Source: Blautia sp.
Lineage (GTDB): Bacteria; Bacillota; Clostridia; Lachnospirales; Lachnospiraceae
Assembly (NCBI GenBank): GCA_017463155.1
Contig: JAFTPT010000038.1
Span: 31,392-95,391 of the forward strand
Direction of reading: 5' to 3'
Length of the DNA stretch: 64,000 nt
Below the pieces are notes generated by a model that worked only from the letters and a program-made list of their open reading frames with translations, ran no database searches and was not told the DNA's origin. The stretch's first letter is position 1; each line of letters begins with the position of its first letter. Positions 3,067 through 64,000 of this stretch are shown here, piece by piece. The translations under genes were made by a program, and so were the position numbers.

Positions 3067-4563
<1,497 letters not shown>

Positions 4564-4601: not shown

Positions 4602-4610
4602 AAGCATAGG

Positions 4611-4711
4611 CCTGCATGACTGGCGGAATCGTAGGAGTACCTACAGGGAGTGCAGGATCGAGATGTGCCGACCGCCTGGGCAGCCTGTGTTAGGGCTGAC
4701 CAGGCGTTTTT
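4611..4711 (+). promoter_or_regulatory. ZTP (pfl motif) riboswitch with terminator expression platform
   Basis: Aptamer 4611-4682: P1 pairs CCTGCA (4611-4616) with TGCAGG (4651-4656). Just inside it is the conserved ACTGGCGG. P2 pairs GTAGG with CCTAC (4631-4644), followed by the conserved CAGGGAG. The hallmark CCGCCTGGGCA lies at 4672-4682 and can pair with TGGCGG as the pseudoknot. The same CGCCTGG (4673-4679) also pairs with CCAGGCG (4700-4706), continued by CAGCC/GGCTG and T5, which forms an intrinsic terminator. Binding of ZTP or ZMP should therefore block the terminator and turn the downstream genes on. Confidence 0.95.
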
Positions 4712-16240: not shown

Positions 16241-18628
16241 TTACTTTTTGAATTCGACGATCGTTACCCCGGAGTCGCCTTCTCCGAATTCACCGAGACG
16301 GAAGGAAGCGACATGCTTGTTCTTTTTCAGATAGTCCTGGACCCCTTTTCTGAGGGCTCCGGTTCCTTTGCCATGGACAATACGTACCGTGGACAGATGC
16401 GCAAGGTACGCGTCATCCAGGTATTTATCCAGCTCTGTCACGGCTTCATCGACGGTCTTTCCGAGAAGATTGAGCTCGGTTGAGACAGAGGAGGATTTTG
16501 ACATACGGATCCGGCCGGCGCCTGTTTTCTGCAGGGAAGGTCCGGTGATCTCTGCTTCATCCAGAAGCTCAAGATCGGATATGTGCACCTTTGAACGGAT
16601 GATCCCCATCTGAACAAAAAGGAATCCTTTCGGATCAGGGCGGCTGGCGACCGTTCCCTTAAGGTTCATGCTCAGTACGCGGACAGCCTCGCCCGGTTTC
16701 AGATCTTCGGGCTTCAGCTCCTTTGAAGGCTTCCTGCGCTCTGCACTCTGCAGGGACATTCCCTGCTGGGCGTCATTCATCCGTTTCCGTATATTCTGCC
16801 GTTCCCGCTCGACGGCGGCCGTATCCACATGATCCTTCTGGAACTTGTGAAACAGTTTCATGGTCTGATCCGCGTATTCCTTTGTATCACGGAGGATCAC
16901 ACTGGCCTGTTCATTGGCTTCACGGAGGATCCTGGCTTTCTGTGCTTCCAGCTTCTGGCGGCTGTTTGCCAGTTCTTCGCGGATCCGTTCGGATTCTGCC
17001 TGGAGGCGGTCGATCTCCTCACGCTTGTTCTCCATTTCGATGCGGCTCTGCTCAAGGGAAGAGAGCACGTCTTCAAAGGATTCATCCTGCTCGCTGATCT
17101 GGTCTTTGGCTCTTTCGATAATGTGCTCGGGAAGGCCGAGCTTTAAAGAGATCGCAAAGGCATTGCTCTTGCCCGGAACACCGATCAGAAGACGATAGGT
17201 GGGACGAAGCGTCTCCACATTGAACTCGCAGCTGCCGTTCTCGACACCGGGCGTGGAAAGCGCATAGACCTTCAGCTCACTGTAGTGCGTCGTCGCCATC
17301 GTGCGGATGCCTCTCTCATGCAGATAGGAGAGGATCGAGATAGCGAGGGCGGCTCCTTCCGTCGGGTCGGTTCCGGCCCCGAGTTCATCGAACAGGACCA
17401 GCGAATGCTCATCGGCTTTTTCAAGAAACGATACCACATTCGTCATGTGGGAAGAGAAGGTACTCAGCGACTGCTCGATGCTCTGTTCATCTCCGATATC
17501 CGCGTAGATCTCTTCGAATACGGCCAGCTCACTCTGCTCGGCCGCGGGAATATGAAGCCCTGCCTGTCCCATCATGGTCAGCAGGCCGACGGTCTTCAGC
17601 GAAACTGTCTTGCCGCCGGTATTGGGACCGGTGATCACGAGCAGGTCAAAATCCTCACCAAGACGGATGTCGATGGGGACAACGTTTCCGGAAGGAATCA
17701 GCGGATGCCTGGCTTTACGGAGCCGGATCCGGCCTTCTTCATTGAACTGCGGCTCGGCTGCCTTCATATCCATGGCAAGGTACGCTCTCGCAAAGATGAA
17801 ATCAAGATCGACCATCAGCTGCAGATCGAGCAGGATCTCTTCACGGCAGGTAACAGTCTGCTCACTGAGACCAGCCAGTATGGCCTCGATCTCTTTCTGT
17901 TCCTTCAGTTCCATCTCACGGATCTCGTTGTTCAGCCGTACGATGGCCATCGGTTCGATAAACAGAGTGGAACCGGTGGAGGACTGATCATGGATCATGC
18001 CGGGGACCTGGTTCTTGTATTCAGCCTTGATCGGAATGCAGTAGCGTCCGTTTCGCGTGGTGATGACAGAATCCTGCAGATAGGATCTGGCGCTCCCGTT
18101 CAGGATGCTGTTCAGCTGGGAGTGGATCCGGTCGTTCGAGAGCCGGATGCTCCGCCGGATCTGGCGAAGGGCAGGGCTCGCGTCATCACTGATCTCATCC
18201 TCGGAAAGGATACACCGGCGGATCTCCGTAGTGAGAGGCGTCAGCGGTTCCAGCTGACTGAACATGGCATCCAGAGAGTCCATCTCTTCCTGGGAAGCAC
18301 GTTCTCCGCGGGAATAGGCTTTGACCCGGGAGACATTCTCAAGCAGCCTGCAGACGGTCAGCAGTTCCTGAATGCTGAGCGAGCTGCCGATCTCCGAACG
18401 CTTCAGTGAACCGCGGATGTCGCGGACGCTTCCGAAGGTGATCCCGCTTTTTTTGTACAGCCGTGTCAGTGCATCGTGGGTCTGTACCTGCATCAGGCGG
18501 ATGTGTTCAAGATCCGTGGAAGGCTCAAGTGTCCGGCAGATCTCCTTTCCCATCGGGGAAGAGGCTTTTTCGACCAGCATGTTGATAACTTTATTATATT
18601 CCAGTGCCTGGTATGCTTTTGTATTCAT
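16241..18628 (-). CDS. mutS2: Endonuclease MutS2
   Basis: A 795-residue MutS2 protein, of the standard length. It contains the MutS-type core and clamp (to about residue 320), ATPase with Walker A in ITGPNTGGKTVSLK (334-341) and Walker B/D-loop in LVLFDELGAGTDPTEGAAL. A coiled-coil region (about 520-620, rich in Glu/Arg/Lys) and a KOW-like segment follow, then a C-terminal Smr nuclease domain (about 718-795) with LNLLGKTVDEA and VHGKGTGALRKG. MutS2 acts on recombination intermediates and, in Bacillus subtilis, in rescue of collided ribosomes. It leads a three-gene leftward operon with its own promoter. Confidence 0.97.
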   Translation of the reverse strand: MNTKAYQALEYNKVINMLVEKASSPMGKEICRTLEPSTDLEHIRLMQVQTHDALTRLYKKSGITFGSVRDIRGSLKRSEIGSSLSIQELLTVCRLLENVSRVKAYSRGERASQEEMDSLDAMFSQLEPLTPLTTEIRRCILSEDEISDDASPALRQIRRSIRLSNDRIHSQLNSILNGSARSYLQDSVITTRNGRYCIPIKAEYKNQVPGMIHDQSSTGSTLFIEPMAIVRLNNEIREMELKEQKEIEAILAGLSEQTVTCREEILLDLQLMVDLDFIFARAYLAMDMKAAEPQFNEEGRIRLRKARHPLIPSGNVVPIDIRLGEDFDLLVITGPNTGGKTVSLKTVGLLTMMGQAGLHIPAAEQSELAVFEEIYADIGDEQSIEQSLSTFSSHMTNVVSFLEKADEHSLVLFDELGAGTDPTEGAALAISILSYLHERGIRTMATTHYSELKVYALSTPGVENGSCEFNVETLRPTYRLLIGVPGKSNAFAISLKLGLPEHIIERAKDQISEQDESFEDVLSSLEQSRIEMENKREEIDRLQAESERIREELANSRQKLEAQKARILREANEQASVILRDTKEYADQTMKLFHKFQKDHVDTAAVERERQNIRKRMNDAQQGMSLQSAERRKPSKELKPEDLKPGEAVRVLSMNLKGTVASRPDPKGFLFVQMGIIRSKVHISDLELLDEAEITGPSLQKTGAGRIRMSKSSSVSTELNLLGKTVDEAVTELDKYLDDAYLAHLSTVRIVHGKGTGALRKGVQDYLKKNKHVASFRLGEFGEGDSGVTIVEFKK

Positions 18629-41089: not shown

Positions 41090-41128
41090 GCCGGCATCAC
41101 AAAACCAGGTGATGCCGGCTTTTTTTTT
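41090..41128 (+). terminator. rho-independent terminator
   Basis: GCCGGCATCAC, eight-base loop, GTGATGCCGGC, then a long T run. Confidence 0.95.
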
Positions 41129-41193
41129 AAAAGCATACGAAAGATTTTAACATTTTTTTTACATTTAAGGGATACCAGAAAAAAATGGATCGT

Positions 41194-41201: not shown

Positions 41202-41313
41202 AAACTATTAATAAATTGTTACTATTTTATCGTAAAGAATCGCGGCTATCCCTGGGATAGTACGGAGGAATGCGTGATCATAGACTATCAAATGTAAGGA
41301 GCGAAGAGACGAT

Positions 41314-44300
41314 ATGAAGAAAATTGTTCAGAACGGCGGCAAAGGTTTCTTTAGTCACAGACGTAGAAAAGGCAGCAGGGTGCTGAGTCTTGCTCTTTCG
41401 GCATCTATGCTTTTGGGAACACTGCCATCCGGCGCGTTTCCGGTGTATGCGGAATCACAGGTGATCTACGGATCCTCGGATGACGACGCTGACGAGGCGA
41501 TTACCTTATCTTCCGGAACGGGCGATAATTCGTCTTATATTGACGAATCTGAACCCTCCGGGGGGGGGGTACGACACCTATGAGGATACATACCTTGATG
41601 AGGGTTACGGAGCGGCCGGTTTGTCCTATGGGACGGATGAGGAGCCTGACTATATAGAAGACTTCCCTGAAGAGGACGCGCTGCAGGAGGATTCTGAATT
41701 AACCGGCGAGAATGATCAACAGAAGGTGGCCGAGGTCCGGTGGGATGCAGGAACAGAAAGCTTCTCTGATTTTGCCGATGCCTGGGACGCCGCGGTTCTG
41801 CATGCCGGGAGTGGTGCAGAGGTCACAATGACCCTTAATGAGGACTGGATCAGTAATGAGGAAGGCTATTTCGGCTACAGCGACAATTTCTCCTCGGAGG
41901 GAAGCATTGCGCTTGATATCTCAAAAGGCGAAGTGACGATCGACGGAAACGGATGCAGCATCATCCGCCAGGGACAGGCAGGTACAGGTGCCTGTGTTCT
42001 TTGCGTGTTTGACGGAACGCTCACCGTACAGAACGCGGATATCCGGGGCGGCAATTCCACCAGCGCGGGCGGCGGTGTTCTGGTCATGGGAGGAACGGTT
42101 CTCCTGGATGACGTGACGATCCTGGACAACCACGCGAAGGACGGTGCCGGACTGTGTATCACGGCCGGTAATGTGACTGTGAAGGACAGTACGATCCACG
42201 GAAACAGTTCCGATGGCTTAGGCGCCGGTATTTATGTAAATACAGATACGGCAGTCCTGACATTTGCAGGGAAAGCAGTTGTTGCCGGAAATACGTCCGG
42301 GATCGGCGGAGATGTGTACCTTGACGGCAGTGCACCGGTTGCTCTGTCCGGACTGTCAGCGAAAAGCAGCGTAAATGTTTCGGCGGATGTAAGCGGCGGA
42401 AGCAGGCTGATCGCCGAAGCGGACGAGAAGATTGCCAATTGCTTCAATACTTCTGAGGATGATAAAGAGATCCGCTGGGAAAACGGAGTGCTTTATCTTG
42501 CGGCAAAGGAAACAGATACAACGGAAGAGGAGCCGGCAGAATCCGCGGATGAGGAGCAGCTGGAGTCTGGGGAAGAGACACAGGCGGAACCGGAAGAGGA
42601 AGCAGAATCTGCGGAAGATGAAGCGGAGGCGGATTCGGATGCAGGTACCGATACAGATGCCGGAGAGGCATCCGCGGCTGCCCTTACCGGCCATACGCTT
42701 GGCAGCAACGTAAATATGCGTGCGCAGGCTGATATAAACAGCGGCGTGGTGACGACGATCGCTGCCGAAGGAACACCTGTGACTATCTATGAAGCAGTTA
42801 CGGTCGGAGAAGACACCTGGTTCCATGTGTCCGCAGAAGGACTGGAGGGCTATATCTTCGGGGAACTGCTTGCAGTGGATGAGGAAGAAGAGGCTCTGGA
42901 TGAGGAAGATGCGCTTGACGAGGGGGAAGCACCTGTAGAGGAAGATGAGACGGAGGATCTGGAGAAGAGTCCGAAGCTGAAATCTGCCCCGCTTGTGTTT
43001 GGCAGCAGCGCAAACGATTCTTTCCTGAAGCTGGGAAACGATGACGAGGAAGAGGATGAACTGTTAGGTTCCGGATCTGAGAAGTCGAATGGCTCTATAC
43101 TAAACAATGATGAGGCCGATGATGATTTTGCGCGTGACATCACAAACGTCACCGACGCCGACAATTCGAGAAATTTCAGGGGATATTATCTTAGACGTTA
43201 CGAGAATGGCGACATACCGTTCAGTTTGTATATTTTTTATGGATGGGAAAACGGGCCGAAGACACTCAAAATTTATTCCAAGGGATATAGCCCATATGTA
43301 TTCTCTAAATTTCATTATGATTATGATACCAGTACTACGACCATTGAAGAAATCTCGCGCAATACTGAGGAGATAGGCGAGGATCTGTTTTTCTATGATC
43401 AGGTGACAAATGGTCCCGGTGAATTCGAAGGTAAAATATTCTACAATAAACTGGATGCAAACGGTAATAAAGGGGAGGAACTCTCTTCATATCCTATCGA
43501 AATAATAATGGCACCTCCTGTAGAGAGTCTTTCTGTTACGGACGCTAACGGAAAATCGTACGATGCAGTTGTCGATACAGATTCAAAAACTATCGATATA
43601 AAGGTGGATATGATGGATCTGGTTGATGGTGCGGCGGTCGATATCCGGGGAGTACTTGATCCAAAAAAGCTGAATCAGATTAATAAACACCTGGCCACTA
43701 TTGGTGTTGGGCATAATATCTATGCTGTTTTGGCACCGATGGCCGAGGATGATAATAATCCGGCATCGATTTATCCGGCAGAATGGGTTAACAATTACAC
43801 AGAAAGAGTTTTTACCCAACAGAACGTAAGTCTGAAAAGAAATATGAAGCTGCTGATTTATGCCGCGAGATATTATGATAAAGATCCCCTTAAAGATATC
43901 CCCATCTTTATCGACAGCTACGATGTGAACGTCACCCCTGAACGTTATATCTATGACGAGGTGCAGATCGATGTAGATGCTTTGGAGGAGGGTGAGATTC
44001 TCACCCCGTCCCTTTCGAGCATGTCCCTGATGAAAAAACAAGCATGGGATGGGTATGATAAGTATTTTCCGGATGGACAGGTTCCCATCGTCTATGATCA
44101 TTATGACAACAGAGTTGTTGCCGGAAAAACATACGACTCATCGATTGTTCTTCACGCGGACGACGATTCCTATGTGATTACCAAAGATGCGGAGATCAGA
44201 GTTTATGTGAAGAAGCCGGACGGGGACAGAGATTTTCTTTTTTCAACAGACGCGGGGAGCGGCGTTTCAATAGATTCGTACATGCCGATGTATGAAGACG

Positions 44301-53300: not shown

Positions 53301-56300
53301 ATGTGGATGGCTACCGCAAGGTGGTAAGGATCGAGCAGACACCGAAGGAAAACTCTGACGGCTCCGGAAATTCCGGATCGGGATCCGGTGACTCCGGTGA
53401 CGGTTCGGAGGATTCCGACGACGGCGACGATGACCCGGATTCGGACACTGAGGCCGGAAGCTCCGGAAGCGGGGCTGAAAGTGGAACAGGGACGGGAACT
53501 GAGACCGGAACCGGTGCAGATACTGGAGCCGGAACGGGAACAGACACAGGAGCCGGAACGGACAGCGGAACCGGAATCGACAGCGGAACCGGAACCGAGA
53601 CAGATACCGGAACGGAAAGCGGAACTGGTACCGATAGCGGATCTGGAACAGATACCGGAACTGAAAGTGGAACGGAAACAGGAACGGACACCGGTTCAGG
53701 TACGGGCACGACTCTTCCGAAACAGGTGGTAAGCAACGAACCGACTGTGATCAATTTCGTTGCGACCAACACCGCGATCGTCGAGACGGTCAACATGAAG
53801 GGCCATGTGGCCTGGGAAGACCTGAAAGATCGGGACGGCAATCGTCCGAAGAGCGTGAACGTCCATATCTGGAATGAGGACGGAGAGTGTGCTTCCGTGA
53901 AGGTTTCGGCCTCCACGGGCTGGCGGTTCGCCTTCAACAAGCTGCCGAAGTACAGCTATGGCTTTGTAAACCACTATTATCTGACCGTGGATGAGATCCC
54001 GGACTATGTGATTTCGGTCACCGAGACCGATGCCGCGGCGACCGGAGAGAACTTCCTGGTGGTCGGAACCTATTCACCGGAGAGCGTAAATCTCTCCATC
54101 ATCAAACACTGGGAGGATGAGGACAATCTGGGCGGAACCCGTCCGGAGGAAGTGACGGTGCATCTGTACCGTACGCTGGGAGACCTTGTGATTCCCGAGG
54201 ATGACAGTACAGACACATCTTCTGACGACGGAAACGATATCGAAGATGGAGAGGATTCCGGACAGGATCCCGCGGACAGCGGAAATACTGAAGACGAAAG
54301 CGGTCCGGCAGACGGAGGTAGCGCCGCGGATAGCGGAAGCACCACGGATGGCGGAAGTACAGCGGATAGCGGCAGTGCAGCTGACGATGGGACAACCACA
54401 GACAGTGGCAGCACCGCGGATAGCGGAAGCACCGTGGATGGTGGAACTACCACAGATGACGGGACAACACCGGATGGCGGAAGTACCGCGGATGGCAGCA
54501 GCACAGATGATGGGACTACACCAGACAACAATAATCCGGCAGACGTTCCTTCTCTCCCGGAAGAGATCGATACCGGCGTCACGCTTACCCTGAACGCGGA
54601 AGGCGAGTGGCAGGGTACCATCGAAGGCCTGCGTGCGCATCTGAATGGACGGTACGTGACCTATTCCATTAAGGAAGAAACGGTTCCGGAAGGCTATACG
54701 ACGACAGTCTCAGCTGAGGTTCCGAACGAATTCGTTGTGATCAATCGCCTGAAGATGCCGTATACAACCGTAACCTCCGACATCATCTGGGAAGACGGAG
54801 ATGATCAGGATGGAAAACGTCCGGAATTCGTGACCGTGAATCTCCTTGCGAATGGTGAGGAAATTGCAAGCCAGGATGTATACAGGAACGAAGAAGGCCT
54901 GTGGAATTATCGTTTTGCAGGAATTCCGATGCTGGATGAAGACGGAAACGAGATTGTTTATACCGTTGCAGAGGATCCGGTTGCCGGATACACGACGACT
55001 GTAAACGGCTATCAGATCACGAACACCCGCGAAGCAGAGAAAAAGTCGATCATGGGTACCATCACCTGGAATGATGACAACGACCGGGATGGCATGCGCC
55101 CGACCTTCGTGACGATTTCTCTTCAGAAGGGTACAGAAGAGCCTGATGTGAAGCTGGTGCGTCCGGGCGAGGACGGCACATGGACATACACGTACGACAA
55201 CCTGGACCGCTATGAAGCCGGACTTGAGGCGGACTACAAGCTGACCGTCAATGAAGAGGAAGGCTACGATGTCACGGTGAACGGTTATGACGTGACCTTC
55301 ACAAGGGCAAGTGAAACCGTTGACATCACAGTGACCAAGGTCTGGAACGACAATGAGAACCAGGATGGATTCCGTCCGGACAGCGTACATATCCGTCTGC
55401 TGGCAAACGGTGAGGAGATTACCAACAGGTATCTGGAGACAGATCCGGATGCCGGCCCCGATGCTGCGGATGATCCCTGGACCGTGACCTTCACAGACCT
55501 TCCGAAAAACGAGAGCGGGGAACCGATCGAGTATCGTGTCAAGGAAGATGCCGTGGAAGGATACACTGCTTCTATTACAGGCAGTGTTTCAAAGGGCTTT
55601 ACTGTAATGAATACCCACGTTCCGGAGACAAGGAATATTGTTGCAAGGAAGGTGTGGGTGGACGATGACAATCTCGAGAACACGCGGCCTGACCATGTGG
55701 TTCTCCGTCTGCTTGCGGATGGAGAAGTCGTCGATTCGCAGCCTGCAGAGGAAGATGCCGGCCCGGATGGCTATGGAACCTGGGCGGTTATGTTCCGCAA
55801 TGTGCAAATGTACAAAGACGGCAGGGAGATCGTCTATACCGTCGATGAGGAACGCGTGGAAGAAACCGGAGACGCCGCATCTGACGAGCGTCCGGAGAAT
55901 GAACCGGTGCCGGGATACACGACGGAAGTCACCGGAAATGCGGCGGATGGATTTGTTGTAACCAACACCCTCAAACAGGAGACAAAAGGCATTGACATCC
56001 GGATCTCCAAGGTGTGGGACGATGATAACAACCGTGACGGAGTCCGCCCGGAGAGCGTCCATGTACGCCTGCTCGCGGACGGCGACGAGGTGAGAAGCGC
56101 CGATCTGAAGGCGGCGGATAATTCAGCAGCTGACGGAAGCGATGCGGCGGATGATACCGGTGAGGAAGAAGACTGGACTGTCACATTTACCGGACTTCCC
56201 TACGCAAAAGCAGATGGGACGGCGATTGTCTACAGCGTAGCTGAAGATGAGGTTCCCGGATATACCACAGAGGTTACTGACGATGCCGAAAACGGCTTCA

Positions 56301-62300: not shown

Positions 62301-64000
62301 AGAAGTTCAATACGGATGGCTCCGAGATCGCCTACACCGTTACAGAAAGAGCGGTTCCGGAATATGTGACAAACATTACCGGAAATGCCGGGGACGGCTT
62401 TACCGTGACCAACACCCATGTACCGGATTCGGAGCAGGAGATCATCCATATCACGGGTGCCAATACCTGGGATGACGCGGATAACGCGGATGGGATCCGT
62501 CCGAAGCAGATCGTTGTAAGTCTCTATGAGGATGGAGAGAGGATCGGCTCCATTCGTGCAAATGAGAGCAATGGCTGGGCCTGGGATTTCGGTGAATTCA
62601 AGCGGTATGCCGATGACGGACATGAGATCAGCTACACCATTAAGCAAGCGGACGTAAACGGATATGAAGCGGTCGTTGACGGATTCAACATCACGAACCG
62701 GCATGAAACAGAGGTGACGGTAACGCCCGAACCGAGCGTAACGCCAGAGCCGAGCGTAACAGGAGAACCGACAGTAACGCCGGAACCGAGCGTAACGCCA
62801 GAACCGGGCGTGACAGGAGAGCCGACGGTAACGCCAGAACCGAGCGTAACGCCAGATCCGGGCGTGACAGGAGGACCGACAGTAACGCCGGAACCGAGCG
62901 TGACGCCAGAACCGAGCGTAACGCCAGAGCCGGGCGTGACAGGAGAGCCGACAGTAACGCCGGAACCGAGTGGGTCGCCAGAACCGAGCGTAACGCCAGA
63001 GCCGGGCGTGACAGGAGAGCCGACAGTAACGCCGGAACCGAGCGTGACACCGGAGCCGAGCGTAACGCCTGAGCCGGATCCCGATAAAGTCATCATCGCA
63101 GGACGTAAGACCTGGAATGATGGGAATAATAAGGATGACCTGCGTCCGGAACGCATCACCATAAGGCTCTATGCGGATGGTGAGAACATCGGTAATAAGT
63201 ATGTCCGTGCAAAGGATGACTGGAGCTGGAACTTTGGAGAGTATGATAAGTACAATGCGGATGGCACTGAAATCTCCTATACTATCAAAGAGGACATGGT
63301 GCCTGAGTATGAGACCATCATAGATGGCTTCAATGTAACGAATACCCATGTTCCGGAACCGGTAAGCCAGGAGAAGATTACCATTGCCGGTGCGAAAACC
63401 TGGGATGACAAGGACGATCAGGACGATCTGCGTCCGGCGCGCATCACCGTCAGCTTGTATGCGGATGGTGAGAACATTGGCAATATGTACGTGCGCGAAA
63501 GCAATGGCTGGAGCTGGGACTTTGGTGAGCAGGACAAGTACGGCGAAGATGGTCATAGAATCATCTACACGATCCGGGAGTCTGCTGTGAGCGGTTATAC
63601 CGCGACAGTGAAGGGCTACAACATCACGAACGTTCATACGCCGGAGTCCGAGGAGCCGGAGCCGACGGTGACACCTGAACCGACGGTGACACCGGAGCCG
63701 ACGGTGACACCTGAGCCGACGGTGACACCGGAGCCGACGGTGACACCTGAGCCGACAGTAACACCAGAACCGACGGTGACGCCTGAACCGGGCGTGACAG
63801 GAGAGCCGACAGGAACACCAGAACCGACGGTGACGCCGGAGCCGGGTGTAACAGGAGAACCGACAGGAACACCTGAACCGACGGTAACGCCTGAACCTAG
63901 CGTGACAGGAGAGCCTACAGGAACGCCTGAGCCGACGGTGACGCCTGAACCGGGCGTGACAGGAGAGCCGACAGGAACACCTGAGCCGGGCGTGACAGGA
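41314..64000 (+). CDS. Giant secreted Cna_B-repeat surface protein (frame switched at a G10 tract; 3' end outside window)
   Basis: One gene fills 22.7 kb. ATG 41314 (AAGGAG upstream) opens a long signal peptide: basic FFSHRRRKGSR, hydrophobic core, cleavage near VYAES. After 82 codons the frame meets ten G bases (41560-41569) and as written stops at 41583. The frame shifted by one base, open from the tract to the window end with no stop that I can find, carries everything else. With nine G the product has at least 7,562 residues. Order: acidic segment, beta-helix, acidic linker, SH3 domain, unique region, 20 Cna_B domains, a 2.4 kb middle region with chitobiase-C-like domains, 32 more Cna_B domains, and proline-rich TPEP repeats. 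A sortase signal is expected beyond the window. Likely a wall-anchored, isopeptide-stabilised stalk or adhesin. Confidence 0.9.
41560..41569 (+). repeat. G10 homopolymer tract (candidate phase-variation switch)
   Basis: Ten consecutive G between CCTCC and TACGAC. Frame 0 runs Gly-Gly-Gly-Val-Arg-His-Leu-stop. The downstream giant frame starts at TAC 41570, one base out. Nine or twelve G would join signal peptide and body. Confidence 0.9.
41926..42320 (+). other. Beta-helix region of the giant protein
   Basis: Repeated short strands of the right-handed beta-helix kind: VTIDGNGCSIIRQG, LTVQNADIRGGN, VLLDDVTILDNHA, VTVKDSTIHGNSS, followed by GAGIYVNTD. Such regions occur in pectate-lyase-like and adhesin proteins. 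The role here is probably ligand binding or a cap. Confidence 0.75.
42690..42880 (+). other. SH3-like domain of the giant protein
   Basis: LGSNVNMRAQADINSGVVTT, then TWFHVSAEGLEGYIFGELL: the NxR...W...GYI pattern of bacterial SH3 domains, which often bind cell-wall glycans. It is bordered by Glu/Asp-rich linkers on both sides (42510-42680 and 42880-43110). Confidence 0.8.
43130..44330 (+). other. Unique region of the giant protein
   Basis: About 400 residues between the SH3 domain and the first Cna_B domain. They contain strand-rich segments such as IPFSLYIFYGWENG and YDVNVTPERYIYDEVQIDVD. I do not recognise a domain. It is the best candidate, with the beta-helix, for a specific binding head. 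Confidence 0.6.
44350..50640 (+). repeat. Cna_B domain block 1 (20 domains)
   Basis: Twenty diverged copies of about 95-115 residues with the pattern W-x-D-D-x-N-x-x-G-x-RP, then V-x-V-x-L, a central W-x-x-x-F/V, LP, Y-x-V and often a final TN. W positions begin at about 44380 (QIVWEDD), 44700 (TIVWEDE) and 45000 (RVNWDDT), and the last is near 50366 (NIVWDDN). Copies are clearly diverged at DNA level. The position two before the Trp, where the bond-forming Lys of Cna_B domains is expected, is Lys in only two (near 45270 and 49040). Confidence 0.9.
50641..53080 (+). other. Middle region of the giant protein (chitobiase-C-like and other beta domains)
   Basis: About 810 residues separating the two Cna_B blocks. 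Two segments look like CHB_HEX_C_1 (chitobiase C-terminal-like) domains: PKADPEGGTYSGPQNVTLFT with IFYSILD near 51330, and VPDLDPGTYAGTQKVRLTQE with CTIYYTTDGTDPT near 52800. The stretch VTVTNGSGSGEYAPGETV (near 51580) resembles bacterial surface repeats of the InlB type and closes with YISFVMPDEDVEIKADF. The rest is not recognised. Confidence 0.7.
53360..53710 (+). repeat. Low-complexity Gly/Thr/Ser/Asp insert 1
   Basis: About 117 residues of Ser-Gly then Thr-Gly-Thr repeats (GTDTGTESGTETGTDTGSGT type), lying inside a Cna_B domain, before its last strand (PTVINFVATN). Confidence 0.9.
54200..54550 (+). repeat. Low-complexity Ser/Asp/Thr/Gly insert 2
   Basis: About 117 residues of units such as DSGSTADSGSTVDGGTTTDD, lying inside the next-but-one Cna_B domain between LVIPEDD and the strand VTLTLNAEGEW. 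Confidence 0.9.
62713..63082 (+). repeat. TPEP proline-rich repeat 1
   Basis: About 123 residues of tandem TVTPEPSVTPEPGVTGEP (18-residue, 54-base unit) and shortened variants, lying between Cna_B domains 30 and 31 of block 2. High DNA identity between units suggests length variation by recombination. Confidence 0.95.
63083..63642 (+). repeat. Cna_B domains 31 and 32 of block 2
   Basis: Two Cna_B domains between the proline-rich repeats, starting GRKTWNDGNN and GAKTWDDKDD, both with Lys before Trp and both highly similar (TVSLYADGENIGN type, WSWDFGE). Confidence 0.9.
63645..64000 (+). repeat. TPEP proline-rich repeat 2 (runs off the right edge)
   Basis: A run of seven to eight TVTPEP hexapeptides followed by about four TVTPEPGVTGEPTGTPEP units up to the last base. 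Proline-rich repeats of this type usually span the cell wall ahead of a sortase signal. Confidence 0.95.

Follow-up and report, generated by a model that had tools for sequence, protein, structure and literature searches.

Does a gene that is interrupted by a run of ten G residues represent a broken gene, an error of assembly or a gene that the cell can turn on and off? The question is raised by a 64,000-nucleotide stretch of DNA from Blautia sp. (assembly GCA_017463155.1, contig JAFTPT010000038.1, positions 31,392 to 95,391), referred to here as the window, in which a G10 tract separates the signal peptide of a giant surface protein from a body that is encoded in a different frame. The evidence described below makes it probable that the tract is a slipped-strand phase-variation switch and that the assembly depicts it in the OFF state; slippage, its reversibility and an accompanying transcriptional polarity are predictions from the DNA sequence. 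What the sequences show is the tract itself, the break in frame, the surface-protein content of the gene and the presence of both states of this layout in relatives. The features of the giant gene and of the DNA preceding it are as follows.

41090-41128, plus strand: intrinsic-terminator-like stem (41090-41119) with a tail of nine T residues (41120-41128), upstream of the giant gene
41158-41186, plus strand: weak promoter-like match (TTTACA / AAAAAT), one found against a mean of 1.3 in shuffled sequences and so not above chance
41296-41301, plus strand: candidate ribosome-binding site (AAGGAG, by eye), 12 bases upstream of the ATG at 41314
41314-41451, plus strand: signal peptide of 46 residues, likely cleaved after VYA (by eye)
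41452-41559, plus strand: linker of 36 residues joining signal peptide and tract, acid-rich (10 D/E)
41560-41569, plus strand: G10 tract, the proposed slippage site (sequence and G-run listing of the window)
41570-41583, plus strand: out-of-frame tail and TGA stop (41581-41583) of the signal-peptide open reading frame (ORF)
41570-64000, plus strand: long open frame of 7,477 residues, running off the contig end

The signal-peptide ORF (41314-41583) encodes 89 residues, beginning, as judged by eye, with basic residues followed by a hydrophobic stretch and VYA. The body frame is free of stops from 41480 to 64000, and its 22.4 kb are without a break apart from the tract. The two frames are not in register across the tract, and a change in tract length would switch the frame downstream. 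The homopolymer is long enough to slip and lies within a gene, as is typical of phase-variable genes, and the arrangement of a short ORF with an export signal, a G-tract and a long ORF lacking its own start signals is that known from Bifidobacterium breve. By eye, the ATG at 41480 is not preceded by an AGGAG-like site. The scan of the upstream DNA did not reveal the true promoter of the giant gene, the sole match being at chance level. An earlier note on this DNA, made from sequence alone, had located the tract and the stop at the positions given above, and the sequence and ORF listing bear out both; its distance of 13 bases from tract to stop is wrong, 11 being counted. The frame that it described as open over the remaining 22.4 kb does run stop-free for 7,477 residues from 41570, and its frame arithmetic, which gives the joined protein 7,562 residues or more, agrees with the measured frames.

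The content of the body was examined with Pfam. Its start is as acid-rich as the linker, with 21 D/E in the first 60 residues, after which comes a beta-helix match below the cut-off. There follow SH3_3 and many Cna_B domains, as well as CHB_HEX_C_1, with PEPT-type repeats at the end. Cna_B stretches numbered 4, 13 and 28 in the three scanned pieces of the body, and a pattern devised for this study found 45 Cna_B-like motifs. The exported protein specified by the gene therefore contains Cna_B domains in multiple copies, export being judged by eye and holding only in the joined frame. An NCBIfam scan of six N-terminal or body pieces gave no match. Since position 64000 is the last base of contig C39 (95,391 bases), the end of the giant frame lies outside the window. 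PEPT-type repeats of the giant frame recur, with 86% identity over 237 bases, at the end of contig C5 (53,779 bases; 53543-53779, L320), where NCBIfam returned one sub-threshold repeat. By eye, a Cna_B-like stretch follows these repeats, and the C-terminus, with TGDET, hydrophobic residues and KRRK in succession, resembles a sortase signal. This end of C5 may be the missing C-terminus of the giant protein or may belong to a paralogue; the contigs were left unjoined. Upstream, no pilus cluster with a dedicated sortase was present among the ten window genes scanned, and because C39 ends inside the giant gene, such a cluster is not established for this gene. The product is probably an exported, wall-anchored surface protein composed of Cna_B repeats, its anchoring and an adhesive function being predictions. 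No orthologue of the gene was found by DNA comparison in the other 63 genomes of the genus or in a wider scan of contigs, and similarity at the level of domains amounted to weak matches in 4 of 41 genomes, its own included.

Two further giant frames, of 4,169 and 4,071 residues, occur in the same genome on contigs C10 and C31 (loci L011, C10:51262-51567, and L014, C31:102519-102929) and are weakly similar to the beta-helix part of the window protein. G runs of nine or longer are absent from both contigs.

It was of interest to determine whether the same layout exists in relatives. Five exported proteins with a tract after the export signal were picked by eye among the tracts of the survey described below, their signal peptides also being recognized by eye. 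When the window gene is included, three of the six are in frame and three are out of frame. Among those in frame, L161 (G055) encodes a signal peptide, approximately 85 acid-rich residues, G10 and then a Cna_B protein that extends for 999 residues or more; L191 (G020) encodes a signal peptide ending in AFAS, G9 and at least 1,000 residues; and L058 (G046) encodes a lipoprotein signal, G9 and a binding protein. Out of frame are L084 (G048), with a signal peptide, G10 and at least 1,332 residues containing F5/8 and malectin domains, and L187 (G079), with a signal peptide, G9 and at least 999 residues containing an MBG domain. Tracts were also found at corresponding places in different genomes. 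An acyltransferase gene of G001 and G065 has G9 at a nearly equal position and is out of frame in both. The promoter before the start of one signal-peptide protein consists of TTGAC, a tract and TATAAT in three species, G010, G058 and G059 (G10, G9 and G9, respectively); in G010 and G058 the flanks are close and tract length differs by one.

The genome under study contains a second G10 tract, at C50:91925-91934, which breaks a membrane-protein gene exactly at the tract: 121 codons are open upstream in one frame and 247 downstream in another. Pfam assigns the 247-codon part to Acyl_transf_3 with a score above the cut-off and finds no family for the 121-codon part. Three of the five neighbours scanned had matches, namely to a group 1 glycosyltransferase, a polysaccharide flippase and a CDP-glycerol glycerophosphotransferase, so that, as judged from predicted products, this acyltransferase is situated among surface-glycan genes. 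The one G9 of the genome is found on C43, immediately before the probable start of a gene on the minus strand, and shows no promoter pattern.

Runs of nine or more G are not peculiar to this genome; they were present in 51 of 64 genomes of the genus and in 43 of 60 genomes of the family, sampled one per genus, its own being included in both counts. The genus name for the first set depends on a single identity, that of sequence shared exactly between G015 and Blautia luti MSK.16.34. The set surveyed in detail comprised 149 distinct tracts at 144 loci, a part of all tracts chosen with preference for the better assemblies and with tracts less than 200 bases from a locus end left out. Coding was called with a codon model made for this study and frame labels were assigned mechanically, apart from that of L187, which was set by eye. 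On the G strand, coding sequence flanked 25 of the 149 tracts on either side (11 in the same frame and 14 shifted), compared with one on the C strand (shifted); 62 had no coding on either side. In nine of the 14 shifted cases the translations look like those of a single gene that the tract interrupts (L052, L061, L072, L093, L104, L139, L143, L154 and L197), and the other five are gene junctions or unclear (L077, L083, L090, L193 and L194).

For 29 tract-bearing or tract-adjacent genes, chosen for long frames beside the tract, Pfam assignments indicated 18 genes for surface-glycan synthesis or modification, six for exported or surface-type proteins, three for signalling and two others. The glycan genes include five of the Acyl_transf_3 family (three of them partial pieces below the cut-off), six hexapeptide transferases, three glycosyltransferases, and one each of FdtA, a TupA-like protein, a pyruvyl transferase and a GNAT domain fused in frame to an epimerase. 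None of these glycan families was found by Pfam in the ten other window genes. Some recurrent arrangements were observed besides: L105, L023, L178, L190 and L122 are intergenic G9 or G10 tracts near mutually similar regulator-like genes in several species, and L070 and L110 are homologous membrane proteins of two species with a G run (11 and 10, respectively) right before the open frame.

A second class of tract became apparent when the survey set was searched for a promoter pattern, in which the tract is followed within 0-2 bases by the −10 box and the spacer measures 15-22 bases, with scores out of 12. A score of at least 9 was obtained for 24 of the 149 tracts, compared with 2.7 expected and 6 on the C strand, and a score of at least 10 for 14, compared with 0.5 expected and none on the C strand. 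TA follows the tract directly in 77 of 149 cases. Poly-G forms the −35/−10 spacer at L195, L047, L165, L099, L101, L103, L160, L162, L181 and L185. A wider contig scan for the pattern gave at least 119 raw matches (L198-L316); the record titles among the matches listed name many metagenome-assembled genomes of Clostridia and Bacilli, and also Blautia luti, Streptococcus, Helicobacter, Chloroflexi and others. As a promoter spacer, the window tract itself was considered and rejected, its best score being 6 of 12 and its position inside a gene.

The mechanism proposed for the giant gene is as follows. DNA polymerase would slip on the G10 tract at replication, adding or dropping G residues at a high rate. 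One class of tract length, modulo 3, would join signal peptide and body in a single frame (ON), and in the other two classes translation would stop soon after the linker (OFF). In the OFF state the untranslated 22 kb would then probably be subject to transcription polarity, as reported for B. breve (PMC9187656). The assembled genome would represent an OFF length.

The abundance of G runs was compared with chance. In the window there are 549 runs of three, 92 of four, 10 of five, one of six, none of seven to nine and one of ten; in the whole genome there are nine of exactly seven, two of eight, one of nine and two of ten. When a first-order Markov chain is fitted to the base composition of neighbours in the window and applied genome-wide, with G and C runs counted, it predicts 249 of seven, 66 of eight, 17 of nine and 6.3 of ten or more. 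Long runs are thus strongly depleted: those of seven, eight and nine reach 4%, 3% and 6% of the predicted numbers. The depletion is weaker at ten (32%), a figure that rests on two runs. Within the giant frame, GGG accounts for 74 of 619 glycine codons (12%), and none of the 26 runs of two or more glycines is encoded by GGG throughout.

Several observations weigh against a switch. The number of G10 tracts in the genome is not above the Markov expectation; the bare count is thus uninformative, and the weight rests on placement, both tracts being at frame changes within genes. The upstream frame of the giant gene has a coding score of 5.8 by the codon model, just below the threshold of 6. At least one of the 14 shifted cases of the survey is a junction of two genes, L194 being the end of a kinase followed by the start of a regulator. 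Eleven of the 25 tracts coding on both sides are in frame, among them L161 in a large surface protein but also L088 in a transposase-like frame. L067, also in frame, has G9 (4001-4009) in what reads like a housekeeping release factor gene, presumably an odd place for a slippery run. In view of genes of these last two types, a tract alone does not make a switch. MutS1 is encoded on C19, with a match above cut-off, and the genome is therefore not obviously deficient in repair; loss of mismatch repair, judged on MutS1, was rejected as an explanation. Finally, neither the 63 other genomes of the genus nor the wider contig scan supplied an orthologue for comparison of tract length, and the length is taken from a single assembly, so that a miscounted homopolymer retains some probability.

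A MutS2-like gene with MutS_V and Smr domains, separate from the MutS1 gene on C19, is present in the window at 16241-18628 on the minus strand. A ZMP/ZTP riboswitch, above the gathering score, is found at 4606-4688 on the plus strand, upstream of an AICARFT/IMPCHase-like gene.

If sequencing or assembly had miscounted the tract, its real length would be an in-frame one and the gene would be ON. Homopolymers are a common site of such errors, the assembly is a draft of 55 contigs, and in the B. breve study measured lengths differed from the published reference (PMC9187656). Both G10 tracts of the genome, however, break genes exactly at the tract, whereas eight A or T runs of six to seven within the ten other window genes leave their frames open, and relatives have both frame states at such tracts; a miscount is accordingly regarded as unlikely. 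Because a miscounted tract would still be prone to slippage, such an error would alter the state depicted more than the mechanism. It is less plausible by far that poly-G was introduced by two-colour short-read chemistry, an idea that is hardly credible even though several tracts of draft relatives lie no more than 150 bases from the end of a contig. For the window tract the distance to the nearer end is 22.4 kb, the survey set is free of tracts close to locus ends, and the single-contig genomes G001, G049 and G078 carry tracts as well.

A gene that was broken once and is now decaying would fit the broken state of the assembly and the absence of a DNA-level orthologue elsewhere in the genus. 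Such a fixed pseudogene is very improbable given 22.4 kb open in one frame, Cna_B domains in all three scanned pieces and a homopolymer as the sole break seen. The remaining alternative is that transcript slippage or ribosomal frameshifting yields a steady full-length fraction with no change in the DNA. Long homopolymers can promote polymerase slippage. The subject is touched on in the B. breve paper (PMC9187656), but structure around the tract is not beyond chance (z −0.75), and bypass at the level of RNA or ribosome would leave the −35/−10 spacer tracts unexplained; it too is very improbable. The phase-variation reading advanced in the earlier note, by comparison, gains support from the anatomy of the gene, the broken gene on C50, the exported proteins found in and out of frame, the promoter-spacer tracts and the B. 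breve layout.

Considered together, the data lean towards a broader view, held with somewhat less assurance than the switch itself: Lachnospiraceae of the Blautia group, and in all probability numerous further Firmicutes of the gut, would run a Campylobacter-like poly-G phasome of surface-protein, acyltransferase and glycosyltransferase genes and promoter spacers that randomizes the cell surface, the giant Cna_B protein being one such switch. This genus-wide set, with its intragenic class, its promoter class and the kinds of genes involved, is of greater interest than the single tract. If the view is correct, hypermutable G tracts allow a common group of gut commensals to vary its surface. Cells of one clone would then differ in adhesion, immune recognition and phage sensitivity, and genes of this kind would frequently appear as broken in reference genomes.

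In the literature searched, which excludes most subscription papers and preprints, no example of phase variation by poly-G from the Lachnospiraceae or any other Clostridia was found among the matches listed, which fits the earlier statement that such switches are rarely described in Clostridia. Where Clostridia or Lachnospiraceae are mentioned, the sources describe invertible switches in C. difficile, a tract of Campylobacter and, in a single remark, some genes of C. ljungdahlii that appear frameshifted in homopolymeric tracts. Context is provided by tatajuba (PMC8808543) and by a study of A/T tracts (PMC2831843).

Several known systems are comparable in part. The Campylobacter phasome (PMC6321876, PMC8355987) likewise has G/C homopolymers, both between and within genes, that are linked to surface structures; the Blautia tracts differ in belonging to Gram-positive surface-protein and surface-glycan genes and in being known from assembled sequence. 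In Gardnerella, G/C tracts of at least eight are abundant, with approximately 70% upstream of ORFs and several in surface proteins, and one varies (PMC11287997). Abundant tracts, some of them in surface proteins, are shared with Blautia; the phylum is different, and a giant Cna_B protein is not among the Gardnerella cases described in the accessible part of that paper. In the fimbrial promoter of Haemophilus influenzae, slippage changes the spacing of −35 and −10 (described in PMC9187656), which resembles the promoter-spacer class of the Blautia relatives, unlike the window tract, which lies in a gene and is no spacer.

The closest precedent, in which slippage was measured, is that of the sortase-dependent pilus loci bbr_0113 and bbr_1889 of B. 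breve UCC2003, where a 65-residue signal ORF and a 2,674-residue ORF (bbr_1889b) are split by a G-tract and polarity on downstream transcription is reported (PMC9187656). Common to both cases are a short ORF with a Sec signal, a G-tract, a long ORF lacking a Shine-Dalgarno sequence and an export signal, a reference genome that is out of frame, a Gram-positive gut commensal as host and a surface structure as product. B. breve belongs to the Actinomycetota, whereas Blautia belongs to the Clostridia and its tract is known from the genome record; its gene encodes one giant protein of Cna_B repeats, exceeding 7,400 residues, and a pilus cluster with a sortase of its own is not established around it. 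By analogy, the tract of the giant gene appears to join a known class of switch, the nearest studied case of which is that of the B. breve pilus loci.
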